A stretch of 64,000 bases of DNA from Peptoniphilus sp. ING2-D1G (lineage in GTDB: Bacteria; Bacillota; Clostridia; Tissierellales; Peptoniphilaceae), in the NCBI GenBank assembly GCA_000952975.1, contig LM997412.1:186001-250000 (forward strand). Direction: 5' to 3'. Below the pieces are notes generated by a model. That model was not told the DNA's origin and did not search any database. It saw only the letters and a program-made list of their open reading frames with translations. Shown piece by piece: positions 2,846-29,260 of this stretch (its first letter is position 1; the number at the start of each line of letters is the position of its first letter). The translations under genes and the position numbers were made by a program.

Positions 2846-3748
2846 TTGAAATACAGAGATTATTATGAAATCCTCGGAGTTGACAAAAGTGCCACTCAGA
2901 AGGAAATTAAATCAGCATATAGAAAGTTGGCAAAAAAATATCATCCCGATTTAAATCAAGGTGATGAGACTGCACAAGAAAAATTAAAAGAAGTCAATGA
3001 AGCCTATGAGGTATTATCGGATAAGGATAAGAAGGAAAAATATGATAAATTCGGCTCAAATTACGACTTTGTAAACGGAGCTAATTTCGATCCCACTCAA
3101 TACGGATACACTTATACAAATGCGGGCGATGGAGGCAAATTCTCAGATTTTTTCAATATGTTTTTCGGAGATGAAAAAACCACCGGTGGATTCAGTTTTT
3201 CCGATATATTTTCAGATATGAACTCCGGAAGCAGAAGAAAACCGAGCAAGACAAGACAAAGATACAACACGGATATAGAGATATCTTTGGAAGACGCCTA
3301 TAATGGTGCACAAAGACAGCTTAATTTATACTTGAATGACAAGCCGATAACTGTAGATTTAAAAATCCCGGCAGGTATTACTCCCGGCAAAAAAATAAAG
3401 GTAAGAGGAGAAAAATACGGAGTTTCGGGAGATATTTACTTTAAGATAAACCTACGCCCCGACAAAGAATTAAAACTCGAAGGGCTTAATATCTACAGGG
3501 AAAAGGAAATATATCCGTGGCAAGCGGCTCTTGGAGACACCATAACCGTAGAAACTCTCGACGGAAGGATAAAACTGAAAATCCCGAAAAATACCAAGGG
3601 CGGATCAAAGCTCAGAATTGCAGATAAGGGATTTAAAGATCTAAAGGGAAACAAAGGAGATTTATATATAGTATTTAAAATAGTAAATCCGACTAATTTA
3701 ACTGAAGTACAATTGAAATTATACGAACAATTGAAAAATATTTCTTAA
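2846..3748 (+). CDS. J-domain co-chaperone (DnaJ/CbpA-like, no zinc finger)
   Basis: A 300-residue protein with an N-terminal J domain (residues 1-70) carrying the HPD tripeptide that stimulates DnaK ATPase. A short linker rich in Gly, Asp and Phe follows, then the two beta-sandwich substrate-binding domains of DnaJ (about 145-300, with [15 protein letters not shown] and a [18 protein letters not shown] segment). The four CxxCxGxG repeats of a full DnaJ are absent, so it belongs to the CbpA-like type II class. Translation begins at TTG 2846 with AAGGAAGTG just upstream. A CtsR-controlled promoter precedes it and clpB follows after 8 bp. It probably feeds aggregated clients to DnaK and ClpB during heat stress. 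Confidence 0.85.
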
Positions 3749-3762
3749 GGGGAGGAATGGAT

Positions 3763-6342
3763 ATGAATTTTGAAAAATTTACTCAAAAATCACTGCAATC
3801 TTTGCAGGATGCACAAAACATCGCTTCGTCCTACGGCAATCCTCAATTGGAGGAAATCCATTTAAACTACGCACTTACAAAGGATAAAGACGGACTTGTT
3901 CCGAGAATTTTAAAATATATGGGAGTCAGTGTAGATGATGTAGTCAGGGATTTAGAAAGAGAAATTGAAAGACTTCCAAAACAAAGGGGTTCAGATGTCT
4001 ATGCATCAGGAGAATTTAAAAAGATAATAGATGATGCCGGAAAATTTGCCATAGATTTTAAAGATGATTATGTATCAGTGGAACATCTATACTTGGCATT
4101 GCTATCCTTAAACGGTTCAAAGTCAAGAAAGATTTTTGAAAAACACAGCATAACCTTAAACGGATTTTTAAGTGCATTGAAAAAAATCAGGGGGAATCAA
4201 CTGGTAAATACCGACAATCCGGAAGCGACCTATGACGCTCTTGAAAAATATGGAAGAGATTTGAGCAAGGACGCAAGAGATGGTAAAATCGACCCTGTAA
4301 TAGGACGAGATGAAGAAATCAGAAATGTAATTAGAATACTTTCCAGAAGAACAAAGAACAATCCGGTGTTGATAGGTGAACCCGGTGTGGGAAAAACAGC
4401 CATAGTTGAAGGACTTGCGCAAAGAATTATCAACGGAGACGTTCCCGAAGGTCTAAAGGACAAGACGATATTTTCTTTGGACATGGGAGCTCTTGTAGCC
4501 GGAGCCAAGTACAGAGGAGAATTTGAAGAAAGACTTAAGGCTGTGTTTTCCGAAGTAAAAAAATCCGACGGACAGATAATAATGTTCATAGATGAAATTC
4601 ACAACATAGTCGGAGCAGGCAAGACCGAAGGAGCAATGGATGCTTCCAACCTTTTAAAACCCATGCTTGCAAGGGGAGAACTTCATGCCATAGGCGCTAC
4701 AACTCTTGATGAATACAGAAAATACATCGAAAAAGACCTCGCCCTTGAAAGAAGGTTTCAAAAAGTTCTGGTTCAAGAACCCACAGTGGAAGACACCATT
4801 TCAATTCTAAGGGGATTGAAGGAAAAATACGAAATATTCCACGGAATAAGGATTTCAGACTCCGCAGTAATAGCCGCAGCAACACTTTCAGACAGATACA
4901 TTACAGATAGATTTTTGCCCGATAAGGCGATAGACTTGATGGATGAATCCTGCGCCATGTTGAGAACCGAAATAGATTCCATGCCCACAGAAATCGACGA
5001 TGTACGAAGAAAAATTCTTCAACTGGAAATCGAAAGGGAAGCACTAAAAAAGGAAACTGACGAACCATCCAAAAATAGGCTTCAAATACTGGAAAAGGAA
5101 TTATCTGAAGAAAAATCCGAATTTGATAAATTAAGCGCAAAATGGGAAAGCGAAAAACATGAATTAGATAAAGTAAAAAACATCAAAAAAGAAATAGAAG
5201 ATGTAAAACACAGAATAGAAGAAGCAGAAAGAAATTACAACCTCGAGGAACTATCAGAACTTCGTTACGGGAAATTGCCACAGCTGGAAGAAGAATTAAA
5301 AAAAGCGGAAAGTGTAACCAAGGAAGAAGACTCCATGGTCAAGGAAGAAGTAACAGAAGACGAAATCGCCCACGTAGTAAGCAGATGGACAGGAATACCC
5401 GTTGAAAAGTTGAACAAAACCGAAAGAGATAAATTAATCAATCTTGAAGACACACTTCACAAAAGAGTAATAGGACAGGATGAAGCGGTAAAAGTCGTAA
5501 GTGATGCGGTACTTCGTGCAAGAGCGGGTCTTAAGAGTGAAAACAGACCCATCGGCTCCTTTATATTTTTAGGACCCACAGGTGTGGGTAAAACGGAAAC
5601 AGCAAAGGCACTTACTGAAAACCTATTCGACGACGAAAAAAACATCATAAGGATAGATATGTCGGAATATATGGAAAAACATTCCGTTTCAAGACTTGTA
5701 GGTTCTCCTCCGGGATACGTTGGATACGAAGAAGGCGGACAATTGACGGAAGCAGTAAGAAGAAAACCCTACAGCGTAGTGCTTTTTGACGAAATAGAAA
5801 AGGCGTATCCCGATGTATTTAACATATTGCTTCAAGTACTTGATGACGGACGACTTACGGATAATCAAGGAAGAACTGTGGACTTTAAAAACACCGTAAT
5901 AATCATGACTTCAAATATAGGATCGCAATACCTGCTTGAAGGAATAGGCGAAGATGGAGAAATCACCGAAGAAGCAAGAGAACTCGTAAGAGGAGAAATG
6001 CGAAGAAGATTCAGGCCTGAATTTTTAAACAGGGCGGATGAAATAGTGATGTTTAAACCTCTTGCAAGAGATGAAATCTACAAGATAATAAAAGCTACAA
6101 TCAAAGATATAGAAGACAGATTATCTGACAGAAATATCAAAATAGAAGTTACGGAAAAAGCTTTGGATTTCATATTGGAAAACTCCTACAACGTACAATT
6201 CGGAGCAAGACCTGTAAAGAGGTATATCCAATCAAATATTGAAACAGAGATGTCCAGAATGATAATCAGAGATGAAATTACCGAAAACAGCAAAGTAAAA
6301 GTTGATATAGAAGAAGATAAACTGAAAATTACAGTTGCATAA
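3763..6342 (+). CDS. clpB: ClpB disaggregase ATPase
   Basis: A Hsp100 chaperone of about 860 residues. In order it shows an N-domain, AAA-1 with Walker A GEPGVGKT near residue 205 and Walker B/ANIVGAG-type region, a charged coiled-coil M domain (about 405-525), then AAA-2 with GPTGVGKT near 605 and [20 protein letters not shown] pore/Walker region. The long M domain separates ClpB from ClpC, which is encoded at 26.8 kb. ClpB threads aggregated protein together with DnaK/DnaJ and does not partner ClpP. Two ATGs are possible. The one at 3763 lies 7 nt after GGGGAGG and gives the family-typical MNFEKFTQK start, whereas the ATG at 3757 is almost on top of the binding site. Confidence 0.95.
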
Positions 6343-24773: not shown

Positions 24774-24864
24774 TTGACAAATATACGATTCCGATGTACT
24801 ATATAAATAGTTGATTATGAAGATAATCGATTATTTTTTAACTTAAAGGACAAAGATGGTCAAA
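24774..24864 (+). promoter_or_regulatory. ctsR operon promoter and CtsR operator
   Basis: TTGACA (24774-24779), 17 bp, TACTAT (24797-24802). The tandem heptamer GGACAAA-GAT-GGTCAAA (24848-24864) matches the CtsR box with one change in the first half-site. It ends 9 bp before the ctsR ATG, so it overlaps the ribosome-binding region rather than the promoter. This implies autorepression by a roadblock, or use of a second, closer promoter. Confidence 0.85.
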
Positions 24865-24873
24865 GGTGATTAT

Positions 24874-25329
24874 ATGGCAAAACTTTCAAATTCAATTGAA
24901 GAATTTTTAAATGCTCTTTTAGAAGAAACAGACGGAATTTTAGAAATTCAAAGATCGAAAATTTCAGACAAATTTAATTGTGCCCCGTCGCAAATTAACT
25001 ACGTTTTGACTACAAGATTCACACCCTATAAGGGATATTATGTTGAATCAAGAAGAGGCGGTGGCGGTTATATTAGAATAGTAAGGGTAGAAATAAAGAA
25101 TAAGAGCAGAATGGAAAAAATATTTAATGATGAAATCGGAGAATCTTTAACTAAGGGAAAAGCGGATCAAATAATCGACGAGTTGGTACATCTTGAATAT
25201 TTAACAGACAGAGAAGCTGAACTTATAAAGGTATTGATAAATGACAGGTCCTTAAATAAGGCCAATGAAAATAAGAATGAACTTCGAGCGGATATATTGA
25301 AAAATATAATGCTTGTGATTCTACAATAG
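24874..25329 (+). CDS. ctsR: Transcriptional repressor CtsR
   Basis: A 151-residue repressor of class III heat-shock genes. The N-terminal winged helix-turn-helix (AKLSNSIEEFLNALL...APSQINYVLTTRFT) ends in ESRRGGGGYIRI, the glycine-rich wing that reads the CtsR box and acts as thermosensor. The C-terminal helical domain mediates dimerisation. ATG 24874 is preferred over ATG 24856, since the latter lies inside the operator and AAAGGTGAT precedes the former. It regulates this operon and, by the box at 2795, dnaJ-clpB. Confidence 0.95.
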   Translation: MAKLSNSIEEFLNALLEETDGILEIQRSKISDKFNCAPSQINYVLTTRFTPYKGYYVESRRGGGGYIRIVRVEIKNKSRMEKIFNDEIGESLTKGKADQIIDELVHLEYLTDREAELIKVLINDRSLNKANENKNELRADILKNIMLVILQ

Positions 25330-25338
25330 GAGGTTACT

Positions 25339-25857
25339 ATGCTTTGCGATAATTGTAAAAAAAACGAAGCTATTATTTCATATACAAAAATGATCGGCAA
25401 TGAGATAGATGAAGTGCATCTTTGCGCTGAGTGCGCTGAAAAAAAGATGAAGGAAGATATGGTTTTTAACAATGTTGTGACAGATAAAGTGGAAAGTTTT
25501 TTAAGGGAACTTTTTAAGCTTACGGGTAAAAATGAAAAATTTGTCGGAGATAAGAAGTGCAGCAGTTGCGGAACTACTTTTAAGGAATTGGAGCAAAACA
25601 GACTTGGTTGTGAAAATTGCTATGAAGAGTTTAAGGACGAAATAGAAAGCATGCTTCAAAGCCTGAAATTTTCTTCAAAACACATAGGTAAAATTCCCAA
25701 AGGTGCGGGAGAAGCTCCTATCCACAGACGTGAAGAAGAAGAATTGATAAATAAATTAAAAAATGCCGTAGATACTGAAAATTATGAAGAAGCGGCGGTT
25801 TTACGTGATAAATTAAAGGAGTTAAGAGAGACAAATGAGTGTAATATTATACAATGA
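25339..25857 (+). CDS. mcsA: McsA, zinc-binding regulator of McsB/ClpC
   Basis: A 172-residue protein with two paired zinc-binding motifs, CDNC...CAEC (residues 3-34) and CSSC...CENC (~73-95). A C-terminal UVR motif (LINKLKNAVDTENYEEAAVLRDKLKEL) is of the kind that contacts ClpC. In Bacillus, McsA activates the McsB arginine kinase and helps release CtsR. All eight cysteines are present. AGGAGG lies upstream and the gene overlaps mcsB by 23 bp. Confidence 0.95.
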   Translation: MLCDNCKKNEAIISYTKMIGNEIDEVHLCAECAEKKMKEDMVFNNVVTDKVESFLRELFKLTGKNEKFVGDKKCSSCGTTFKELEQNRLGCENCYEEFKDEIESMLQSLKFSSKHIGKIPKGAGEAPIHRREEEELINKLKNAVDTENYEEAAVLRDKLKELRETNECNIIQ

Positions 25858-26809
25858 ACTTAAGTTGTCAAGAAATGTATCAGGTCTTAATTTTCCGTCA
25901 AAAATCGATAATGAAAGCGCAGAGAGAATCCTGACAAAGCTTGATTATATATTGAGTAAAAAAGAGTTCAAACTCAAGAGGACAAGAGATTTATCCTCTC
26001 TTGAAAAACTGCAACTCTATGAAGATTGTGTTTTAAACGCGAGCATATTGAAGCATGAACACTTCAGCGCGGTATTTATCGATGAAAATGATTTAGTTGT
26101 AAGAGTTAACGGCGATAATCACATCGAGATATACAAAAGTACCAAAGAGAAGAACTTACCTGATATTTTTGAACAAATAAATGAAGTGGACGACTATATT
26201 GATGATAATATAAAGTATGCCTTCAGAGAGGATTTCGGATACTTAAATTCCAATCCAAATTATTGCGGAAACGGACTTGTGGCGGAGGTGTATCTCCATT
26301 TGCCGGCAATTAACTATTTTGGAAGAAATTCTCTTATGAACACTTTAAACAGGCTGGGATACAATATCAGTTCCCTTAACATGGGAGATAAGGCAGTGGG
26401 TTCAATTTATAAATTGTCCTTGGACAGAACAATAGGTATAGATGAAAAGGAATATCTAAGTAAGTTGATTAATATTTCCAATGAAATAGAGGATATGGAA
26501 GAGCAAAACAGAAAAAAACTCTATCTTGATGAAATTATAGACTTGGAAGATTTAGTTAACAGAGCCTTTGGAATTCTGAGAAATTCAAGGGTTATAGATG
26601 AACTGGAAATGATAGATAAAATGAGCGATTTGTTTTTGGGAATAGAACTGAGTATTTTGAAACCGAAGGAAAAATTGGACTTGATAGATTCTATAAAACA
26701 ATTTAAAAACGGTCATCTGCAAGTGGAAAGGGGAGCACTTTTAGATGAAAAATCGCGAAATATTTTAAGAGCTAACAATATAAGAAAGATGATGAAGGAG
26801 GTTTTTTAA
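25835..26809 (+). CDS. mcsB: McsB-family protein with eroded kinase active site
   Basis: A 324-residue homologue of protein-arginine kinase, identified by operon position and by retained framework segments (NEVDDYIDDNIKYAF, VYLHLPAI, KAVGSIYKLS, FGILRNSRVIDE, LGIEL and RNILRANNIRK at the C-terminus). The kinase residues look lost. The ATP-binding SSRIRLAR region reads YNELKLSR (6-13). The acidic NEEDHxR loop reads NGDNHIE (92-98). The phosphagen-kinase signature CPTNxGTG reads NPNYCGNG (140-147), without its cysteine. GLRAS reads GLVAE. It is also shorter than the usual ~350 residues. By family knowledge it should therefore not phosphorylate arginine and may act as an adaptor or CtsR antagonist. 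The comparison with canonical sequences is from memory. Confidence 0.85.
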   Translation: MSVILYNELKLSRNVSGLNFPSKIDNESAERILTKLDYILSKKEFKLKRTRDLSSLEKLQLYEDCVLNASILKHEHFSAVFIDENDLVVRVNGDNHIEIYKSTKEKNLPDIFEQINEVDDYIDDNIKYAFREDFGYLNSNPNYCGNGLVAEVYLHLPAINYFGRNSLMNTLNRLGYNISSLNMGDKAVGSIYKLSLDRTIGIDEKEYLSKLINISNEIEDMEEQNRKKLYLDEIIDLEDLVNRAFGILRNSRVIDELEMIDKMSDLFLGIELSILKPKEKLDLIDSIKQFKNGHLQVERGALLDEKSRNILRANNIRKMMKEVF

Positions 26810-26812
26810 CCT

Positions 26813-29260
26813 ATGAATATATTCGAAAAATTTTCTCAAAAGGCGCAGAGGGCAATTTTACTTGCTCAAAACGAAGCAAGGGAATCAAGAGTTAACTATG
26901 TGGGCTCGGAACATCTTTTATTGGGAATAATGAAAGAAGGTTCAGGGACGGGAGCAGATATTTTAAAATCCATGGGTCTGGATTATAAGACTTTAAAACT
27001 TGCCACCTATGAAATAATCACAAGGGGCAATTCAATGCCAAATGCAAATTTGATATATACTCCAAGAACCAACAAGATATTTGAACTTGCCTTTGAAGCG
27101 GCAAAGGAAGATGGACTTGAATTCATCGGCACGGAACACATACTTCTCGGAATTATAAGAGAAGGACAGGGAATTGCCATATTGGTATTAAGAAGATTGG
27201 GAATAGACGCAGCTACTCTTGAAAATGCAATAATGAATACTGAAATTGATGAAGAAGATCAAGAGAGTTCAGAAAAAAAAGACACCACGCTTGGCAAGTA
27301 CACCATAAACTTAAATGAAAAGGCAAAGGAAGGTAAGATTGATCCCATAATCGGAAGAAGAGCAGAAATTGAAAGGGTAATTCAAGTTTTATCAAGAAGA
27401 AAAAAGAACAATCCGGTGTTAATCGGTGAACCGGGAGTTGGGAAAACTGCCATAACGGAAGGTCTTGCAATGCGAATCATCAACAAAGAAGTTCCTGAAA
27501 TAATGCAAGATAAGATCATAAGAACCCTCGATGTTTCGGGACTTATTGCAGGAGCAAAGTATCGTGGAGATTTTGAAGAAAGGCTTAAATCTGTAATAAA
27601 TGAAGTTATAGATTCAAAAAACACCATTCTTTTCATTGATGAAATGCACGTGATAATCGGAGCGGGAGCGGCTGAAGGGGCAATTGACGCCTCAAACATT
27701 TTAAAACCCTTTTTAACCAGAGGGGAACTTCAAATAATCGGCGCGACAACTATAAATGAATACAGACAAAGAATAGAAAAAGATCCCGCCTTTGAAAGAA
27801 GATTGATGCCCATAACTGTAGAAGAACCCACCATAGAAGACTCGATATTGATAATAAAGGGATTAAAAGAAAAATATGAGGAGTTTCATGATGTGGAAAT
27901 TACCGATGAAGCCATAGAAGCTGCAGTAAAGCTTTCCGACAGATATATAAATGACAGATTTTTGCCGGACAAGGCCATAGACTTAATAGATGAAGCATGT
28001 TCAAAAATAAGAGTAAAAAACTTTGAAAGCCCTGATTTTAAATTGGAGTACGAAGCTGAACTTGAAAGAATAAACAATGAAAAGAAAAAGGCGGTAAGCA
28101 ATCAAGATTTCGAACTGGCTGCATCCTTAAGGGATGAGGAACAAAATCTCAAGAAAGAATTCGAAGAAAAAACCAAAAAATACAAAGACAGCAAGGAAAG
28201 AGAAAAGGTGACCTACGAACAGATTTCGGAAATAGTATCCAACTGGAGTAAGGTCCCTGTAAATAAACTTGATGAAAGAGAAAAGGAAAAACTCGTAGAT
28301 CTGGAAAAGAAGCTTAAGAAGAGAGTAAGAGGACAAGATGAAGCCGTAGATACAATTGCAAAGGCGATAAAAAGATCAAGAGTGGGACTTAAGGATCCCA
28401 ATAAGCCCATGGGAGCCTTTATATTTGTAGGACCCACGGGAGTGGGTAAAACCTATCTTGCAAAATGCCTTGCCTATGAACTTTTCGGCAGTGAAGAAGA
28501 CATGATAAGGATAGATATGTCCGAATACATGGAAAGATACTCCGTATCCAGACTTATAGGGTCACCTCCAGGATATGTGGGCTATGATGAAGGCGGACAA
28601 CTCACAGAGGCCGTCAGGACAAATCCCTATACCGTGCTTTTACTTGATGAAATAGAAAAGGCGCACCCCGACGTGTTCAACATCTTGCTTCAAATACTGG
28701 ATGAGGGAAGACTTACCGATTCCAAGGGCAGAACTGTAAGCTTTAAAGATACGGTTATAATCATGACATCAAATGTGGGCGCAAGCAGTTTAAAAAATAA
28801 GACGACCATAGGATTTTCCGATGAAGATAAAGAAACCGGTGAATACAATAAAATGAAGGAAATAGTAAATTCCGCACTGAAGGATACCTTTAAACCCGAA
28901 TTTTTAAACAGGTTGGATGACGTAATAGTCTTTAAGGAACTTGGACCTAAGGAAGTTCAAAGCATTGTCGTAATAATGCTTGATGAATTGAAGGAAAGAC
29001 TTTCAGAAATGGGAATAGATGCAACCTTCACCAAGAAAACCGAAAAATATATCGCTGAAAAGGGATTTGACAGAAACTTCGGCGCAAGACCTCTGGAAAG
29101 AGCCATAAGAACTCATATTGAAGATGAACTTGCCCAAAAAATCCTCGAAGGAGAATTCGGCAAGGGAGATGCGATAGAAGTGGATTTCAACAGAAAATTA
29201 ATTGTAAAAAAGCTTGACGGAGCTAAAAATGAAGAAAAAGAAAACGAAGTTTCTATGTAA
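26813..29260 (+). CDS. clpC: ATP-dependent Clp protease ATPase subunit ClpC
   Basis: An 815-residue Hsp100 ATPase that unfolds clients for ClpP. The N-domain has two repeats, each ending in GSEH/GTEH-LLLGI; the Glu at 33 and 108 correspond to the phosphoarginine-binding glutamates of Bacillus ClpC. Walker A GEPGVGKT lies near residue 206, a short linker with a UVR-like segment (AVSNQDFELAASLRDEEQNLKKEF) near 425-450, and GPTGVGKT near 540. The short linker distinguishes it from ClpB. AAGGAGG lies 11 nt upstream; the gene follows mcsB by 3 bp. Confidence 0.96.
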   Translation: MNIFEKFSQKAQRAILLAQNEARESRVNYVGSEHLLLGIMKEGSGTGADILKSMGLDYKTLKLATYEIITRGNSMPNANLIYTPRTNKIFELAFEAAKEDGLEFIGTEHILLGIIREGQGIAILVLRRLGIDAATLENAIMNTEIDEEDQESSEKKDTTLGKYTINLNEKAKEGKIDPIIGRRAEIERVIQVLSRRKKNNPVLIGEPGVGKTAITEGLAMRIINKEVPEIMQDKIIRTLDVSGLIAGAKYRGDFEERLKSVINEVIDSKNTILFIDEMHVIIGAGAAEGAIDASNILKPFLTRGELQIIGATTINEYRQRIEKDPAFERRLMPITVEEPTIEDSILIIKGLKEKYEEFHDVEITDEAIEAAVKLSDRYINDRFLPDKAIDLIDEACSKIRVKNFESPDFKLEYEAELERINNEKKKAVSNQDFELAASLRDEEQNLKKEFEEKTKKYKDSKEREKVTYEQISEIVSNWSKVPVNKLDEREKEKLVDLEKKLKKRVRGQDEAVDTIAKAIKRSRVGLKDPNKPMGAFIFVGPTGVGKTYLAKCLAYELFGSEEDMIRIDMSEYMERYSVSRLIGSPPGYVGYDEGGQLTEAVRTNPYTVLLLDEIEKAHPDVFNILLQILDEGRLTDSKGRTVSFKDTVIIMTSNVGASSLKNKTTIGFSDEDKETGEYNKMKEIVNSALKDTFKPEFLNRLDDVIVFKELGPKEVQSIVVIMLDELKERLSEMGIDATFTKKTEKYIAEKGFDRNFGARPLERAIRTHIEDELAQKILEGEFGKGDAIEVDFNRKLIVKKLDGAKNEEKENEVSM

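Follow-up and report, generated by a model that had tools for sequence, protein, structure and literature searches.

In this work, we focused on the mcsB gene of a 64,000-nucleotide stretch of the Peptoniphilus sp. ING2-D1G genome (hereafter the window). Homology and alignments strongly support that its product cannot phosphorylate arginine, i.e. that it is a pseudokinase, and comparisons with relatives showed that the gene has been maintained as a protein under strong purifying selection. We consider it fairly probable that McsA and this dead McsB would still form a complex that controls CtsR, Clp targeting or both, with no need of arginine phosphorylation.

The locus carries ctsR, mcsA, mcsB, clpC and radA in that order (Table 1), with mcsB between mcsA and clpC, in agreement with the intact ctsR-mcsA-mcsB-clpC order claimed in an earlier note on this DNA. 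The mcsB frame is open, its first 23 nt overlap the end of mcsA and its stop lies 3 nt before clpC, so the intact frame coupled to mcsA described in that note was recovered as well. The product matched PF00217 (106 bits), and the NCBIfam protein arginine kinase models matched it over its full length far under their cut-offs (207 bits against 385 for NF002194, 180 against 500 for NF053707), the protein scoring below every NCBIfam equivalog cut-off. Homology to McsB sequences of the PDB covered the whole length (E 1e-30 to 1e-41 overall), the best matches being the McsB structures 8wtb, 6tv6 and 6fh1 (E 1e-39 to 1e-41). McsB structures also came first in a Foldseek search (6fh1, E 1.9e-19) with an AF2 model of modest quality, built from six sequences (mean pLDDT 69.7, falling under 50 in the C-terminal domain). 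By these comparisons, the gene encodes a genuine McsB homologue with the phosphagen kinase fold, and no second PF00217 gene was found in the whole genome (1.60 Mb, one contig). Relatives of the protein were retrieved from a Peptoniphilus MAG (85 % identity), Peptoniphilus obesi (65 %), P. mikwangii (55 %) and two Anaerosphaera (56-57 %).

Table 1. Positions of the mcsB homologue, of its altered and retained segments, and of neighbouring features in the window
Feature	Position	Strand	Basis
mcsB homologue without catalytic residues (predicted pseudokinase), 324 aa	25835..26809	+	homology, alignments, PF00217
mcsA, with two zinc fingers, of which the second (CSSC...GCENCY) binds McsB	25339..25857	+	
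YNELKLSRN in place of SSRIRLARN (R29E, R31K; R34, N35 kept)	25850..25876	+	alignments
NGDNHIE in place of NEEDHIR (E121D, R125E; H123 kept)	26105..26134, approximate	+	alignments
GYL loop kept, then NPNYCGNGLVAE instead of CPTNVGTGLRAS (C167N, R176V)	26234..26290, approximate	+	alignments
Lid segment without R207 and E212	26369..26399, approximate	+	alignments
C-terminal dimerisation domain, R272, R281, R337 and R341 kept (KSRNILRANNIRK)	26550..26806, approximate	+	
clpC; E32 and E106 (N-terminal pArg-site glutamates) kept, K85 replaced by Asn	26813..29260	+	
ctsR	24874..25329	+	ATG 24874 likelier start
CtsR-operator-like heptad repeat GGACAAAGATGGTCAAA, 1 mismatch	24848..24864	+	position before ctsR

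Residues were numbered according to B. subtilis McsB, with C167 and the R337-D338 pocket as checkpoints, and eight of them were taken as the core active-site set (R29, R31, E121, R125, C167, R176, R207 and E212). None of the eight is kept in the window McsB (R29E, R31K, E121D, R125E, C167N, R176V, R207S, E212G). Further changes relative to B. subtilis and Geobacillus McsB are S27Y, S28N, E120G and D122N; all the motif changes listed in the earlier note proved real in this alignment, and the losses of R207 and E212 add to them. Retained positions are R34, N35, H123, G162-Y163-L164, G172, E251, R255, R272, R281, R337 and R341, which leaves R34 as the sole active-site arginine of a protein that has lost both the catalytic Cys and the catalytic Glu. 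In B. subtilis McsB, each of the substitutions R29K, R31K, R34K, R125K, R176K, R207K and R337K abolished kinase activity in vitro, and C167S is a kinase-inactive allele (PMC7235348).

A survey of McsB in the Peptoniphilaceae, proposed in the earlier note, was carried out on 130 genomes. PF00217 was matched in 102 of them: 22 carry an intact or nearly intact McsB (including one with C167S, G012, and a partly degenerate one, G019) and 80, spread over 14 genus groups, a dead one, i.e. without a usable active site; the remaining 28 have none. All eight core residues are kept in 37 of 38 intact McsBs (reference, family and outgroup sequences), the last one keeping seven, and in 15/15 order-level outgroups. 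The dead McsBs of the family keep none (53 proteins), one (23) or two (4) of the eight, and C167 in no case (0/80). When the 51 positions conserved at 95 % or more in intact McsBs were considered, dead McsBs retained the core eight at 5 % vs 51 % for the other positions, and the clade of the window at 7 % vs 67 % (Mann-Whitney p about 2e-4 to 3e-4, to be taken as indicative since the sequences are related). Judged on these alignments, the pattern of residue loss is far beyond chance. The control genome named Bacillus subtilis matched PF01451 and neither PF00217 nor CtsR; the species has both McsB (PF00217) and CtsR, and the controls are uninformative for both families.

To place these losses, a tree was built on ClpC without its N-terminal domain. 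The dead state required at least three changes on well-supported branches and five on the best tree, direction not being counted; the clade of the window (genus groups g1, g5, g9, g22, g25 and g19; SH-aLRT 97) lies close to a clade with intact McsB. Since the outgroups are intact, repeated loss is the natural reading. The survey was extended to 391 genomes of the class, 265 of which matched PF00217; 24 low scorers were examined, of which 19 proved dead (0-3 of the 8 core residues) and the rest partial or incomplete. These dead McsBs belong to at least six other families (f60, with 10/10 sampled, f27, f74, f82, f98 and f99) and share R34, G162 and Y/F163 (19/19 each) and H123 (18/19). Dead McsB thus probably arose repeatedly. 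In three McsBs, i.e. L153 (G012), L244 (G158) and L245 (G198), the catalytic Cys is replaced by Ser with most other residues intact, a possible first step to a dead enzyme.

The alignment was also inspected for catalytic residues displaced from their usual place, and none was recognised. The Cys C144 of the window McsB sits 4 residues further on, at the position of residue 171 (about 26264-26266); we rejected it as a displaced active site because no intact McsB has a Cys there (0/38) and all the active-site arginines but one are gone. Enzymatic activity through such rearranged residues, or a different reaction taking place in the former pocket, is very improbable on the same grounds: a residue-171 Cys does recur in several dead lineages and in no intact McsB, but most dead McsBs lack it, and even within the genus the lost residues are replaced by different ones, with no new conserved polar motif. 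This Cys was counted in 18/80 dead McsBs of the family and 4/19 of the class sample, and occurs in dead McsBs of g1, g5, g9, g19, g21 and g24 and of the class families f27 and f74; possibly, it is a redox thiol near the McsA-contact loop.

The arginine phosphatase YwlE provided an independent line of evidence. The matches to LMW-PTP in the family fell mainly into two motif classes: CTGNTCRSP, which we take to be YwlE-type, its Thr being the one that gives YwlE its specificity for arginine, and CVHNSCRSQ, which we take to be the ArsC-type LMW-PTP motif. With an independent DNA pattern, a YwlE-type phosphatase was detected in 20 of the 22 intact-McsB genomes vs none of the 80 dead ones (Fisher p 3e-19, without correction for relatedness). 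In one genome (G076), the sequence behind the match is not of YwlE type (CHGNTCRWA), and another (G014) was YwlE-positive without a PF00217 match, its ctsR-mcsA running into a contig end. As had been suggested earlier, we searched the window genome for YwlE and found none: the single LMW-PTP match carries CVHNSCRSQ, and this sole candidate was discarded as ArsC-type. At class level, the YwlE motif occurs in 128/229 genomes with presumed intact McsB, 2/31 with dead McsB (one probably spurious) and 6/126 without McsB; since only 128 of those 229 carry it, the absence of YwlE is supporting evidence and not proof. The pseudokinase reading of the earlier note is strongly supported by the loss of the whole core set, the absence of YwlE and the sharing of this loss across the genus and far beyond. 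In G019 (L149, L179), McsB is half-degenerate and the phosphatase motif is altered too (CIGNTARS), which would suit a joint loss of the two.

We further assessed whether the dead gene is maintained. The window was compared with its closest relative (85 % identity) by the Nei-Gojobori method, synonymous sites being near saturation; dN/dS values were 0.043 for mcsB, 0.068 for ctsR, 0.069 for mcsA and 0.050 for clpC. Twelve other close pairs with dead McsB gave 0.042-0.109 and intact pairs 0.036-0.117. Whole genera keep a dead McsB (31 species of g24, 14 of g22). A sequencing error or pseudogene was ruled out, as the same losses are found in relatives down to 55 % identity and dN/dS is low; the earlier statement that the gene is under selection and not decaying is upheld by a value close to those of its neighbours and by conservation across the genus and beyond. 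These values also bear on the idea of a transitional relic, i.e. a gene heading for deletion as the need for arginine phosphorylation decreases and held by translational coupling in the operon only. A graded series from intact through Cys-to-Ser and dead to deleted McsB, the overlap of mcsB with mcsA and the translational coupling of McsB and ClpC in B. subtilis (PMC5506225) would all suit this explanation. It is nevertheless improbable: dead pairs are as constrained as intact ones (0.04-0.11), many species show no frameshifted copy, dead McsB is conserved over whole genera (g24, g22) with McsA finger 2 kept alongside, and coupling alone would not conserve an amino-acid sequence. CtsR was found in 123/130 family genomes, and in 20 genomes with CtsR and no PF00217 match mcsB is missing and the operon reads ctsR-mcsA-clpC, so the function of dead McsB appears dispensable in some relatives.

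What is conserved in dead McsBs points to McsA. Binding between McsA and McsB goes through finger 2 of McsA (PMC7235348); in S. aureus, this finger contacts a McsB loop (Y147-Y153) that immediately precedes the catalytic cysteine (PMC12467219). All 80 genomes with dead McsB retain finger 2, vs 3/20 without McsB, as do all the intact-McsB genomes whose McsA was read; it is also present in nearly all cases in the McsA encoded upstream of the class dead McsBs. Finger 1 behaves the other way round: g20 and g21, which keep a dead McsB, have lost it. The 20 McsB-less genomes (L199-L218) keep mcsA, in 17 of them with the N-terminal zinc finger only. On the McsB side, the GYL loop is retained in dead family proteins (G162 in 79/80, Y/F163 in 80/80). 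The window McsB combines G162 and Y163, of the loop contacted by McsA in S. aureus, with R255, R272, R281 and R341, whose mutation removed stimulation by McsA in B. subtilis. Tree-aware pair tests yielded 2-4 independent pairs, none against expectation, too few to reach significance. Taken together, the contact loop, the coupling arginines and McsA finger 2 suggest that the link to McsA has been kept; they do not indicate which output is used.

Within the clade of the window, R255, R272, R281, R337 and R341 are kept in 25-28 of 28 proteins (R337 in 26, R341 in 28), and R29, R125, R176 and R207 in 0/28. As to the earlier remark that fold segments and an Arg-rich C-terminal stretch remain, McsB structures are the nearest and R337 and R341 are kept. 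This C-terminal retention holds for the clade of the window only: over all dead family McsBs, R272 is found in 34/80, R281 in 31/80 and R337 in 26/80. The two arginines kept in this clade could be taken as a sign that dead McsB reads phosphoarginine through its C-terminal pArg pocket, a role that we regard as very improbable, since the genome has no arginine kinase to make phosphoarginine, the window McsB carries Asn for D338 and Glu for S285, and R337 is missing from most dead McsBs.

The reading that we favour is a binding-only, McsA-gated control of CtsR, because the conserved parts match what McsA gating requires. McsB, unable to phosphorylate arginine, would be kept as the structural partner of McsA, and the McsA-McsB complex would act purely by binding, controlling CtsR and perhaps also handing it or other clients over to a Clp ATPase. 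Finger 2 of McsA would hold McsB; upon its oxidation or unfolding, free McsB would pull CtsR off its operators. Under thiol stress in B. subtilis, oxidised McsA releases McsB, which removes CtsR from DNA while not acting as a kinase (PMC5506225), and it would be this kinase-independent branch that was kept after loss of the arginine-phosphorylation branch. We infer complex formation, CtsR removal and redox gating from these likenesses, and we likewise infer that the branch kept is CtsR removal and not the Clp-adaptor role.

The mechanism put forward in the earlier note was a pure adaptor. In the form considered here, dead McsB would bring CtsR, or else misfolded proteins, to ClpC or ClpX by binding only, with no removal of CtsR from DNA. 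This mechanism is plausible as a reading of the sequence, although we hold it unlikely as the whole explanation. B. subtilis McsB binds ClpC (PMC5506225), its C167S variant keeps partial adaptor function on MgsR, possibly through ClpX, and supports MgsR degradation better than deletion does (PMC7235348), and the clade of the window retains the C-terminal dimerisation domain. Against this, B. subtilis McsB working with ClpCP needs its kinase activity both for ClpC stimulation and for substrate degradation (PMC5506225), and in other dead lineages the C-terminal domain is much less conserved, whereas the McsA contact is kept in all. An McsA-gated, possibly redox-controlled CtsR antirepressor would fit the sequences at least as well as a pure adaptor, and antirepressor and Clp-adaptor actions can coexist.

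ClpC itself was considered as a source of support. Residues P82, R83, K85, E32, E106 and H107 of its N-terminal domain are invariant in intact-McsB genomes (20/20), and several of these residues drift in dead lineages such as g24, g20 and g21 and in McsB-less genomes. In the clade of the window, E32 is kept and E106 largely kept, and E32, E106 and K85 also affect the resting state of ClpC (PMC12583610). Decay of the site was therefore dropped as an argument for the window, and its ClpC, which keeps both glutamates, counts against the binding-only reading, with the reservation that these sites are also structural. As for the DNA targets of CtsR, an operator-like repeat precedes ctsR and overlaps the ATG at 24856, which makes ATG 24874 the likelier start; by chance, the window is expected to contain operator matches with up to 2 mismatches, and the support for GGACAAAGATGGTCAAA is therefore its position. 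A perfect CtsR-type operator, GGTCAAAGAAGGTCAAA, lies at 2795-2811 of the window, shortly before a DnaJ-like gene and clpB (2846-6342), which suggests that DnaJ and ClpB belong to the CtsR regulon of this genome.

More tentatively, we extend the binding-only reading to the class: McsA-McsB may repeatedly have lost its kinase, and mostly YwlE too, with the interface kept, in which case the more widely needed role would be a binding-only, McsA-gated CtsR switch, from which phosphorylation can be dropped. The kinase and adaptor activities of B. subtilis McsB are hard to separate (PMC5506225). Their separation has occurred many times in nature, some 100 sampled genomes having kept McsA together with an McsB whose active site is unusable, and dead McsBs offer a comparative handle on the roles of McsB apart from arginine phosphorylation, as natural separation-of-function proteins for the CtsR/Clp switch. 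For the genomes concerned, the annotation 'protein arginine kinase' would be wrong, and the presence of mcsB is no ground for assuming phosphoarginine signalling. A literature search returned no description of natural McsB pseudokinases; subscription papers were mostly outside its coverage, so that absence is not proven.

Among known systems, the active McsBs of B. subtilis, G. stearothermophilus and S. aureus (6tv6, 6fh1, 8gqd, 8wtb) resemble the window McsB in whole-length homology, operon position and a dimerisation domain with R341, and differ from it in that the latter has lost the catalytic Cys, the catalytic Glu and all active-site arginines but one, in a genome without YwlE. With the McsA-McsB redox switch of B. 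subtilis (PMC5506225, PMC7235348), the window shares ctsR, a finger-2 mcsA, mcsB and a CtsR-like operator. That switch needs McsA binding and not phosphotransfer. As a member of the Peptoniphilaceae, the host is probably a strict anaerobe, so the signal may differ. Bacterial Ser/Thr pseudokinases also represent kinase-family proteins kept without catalysis, on an unrelated fold, and their review names McsB in its reference list only (PMC12599244). Finally, the window McsB is predicted to share with B. subtilis McsB C167S the lack of arginine kinase activity; C167S is a single laboratory mutation, whereas the window McsB represents the natural loss of a whole active site over many species.
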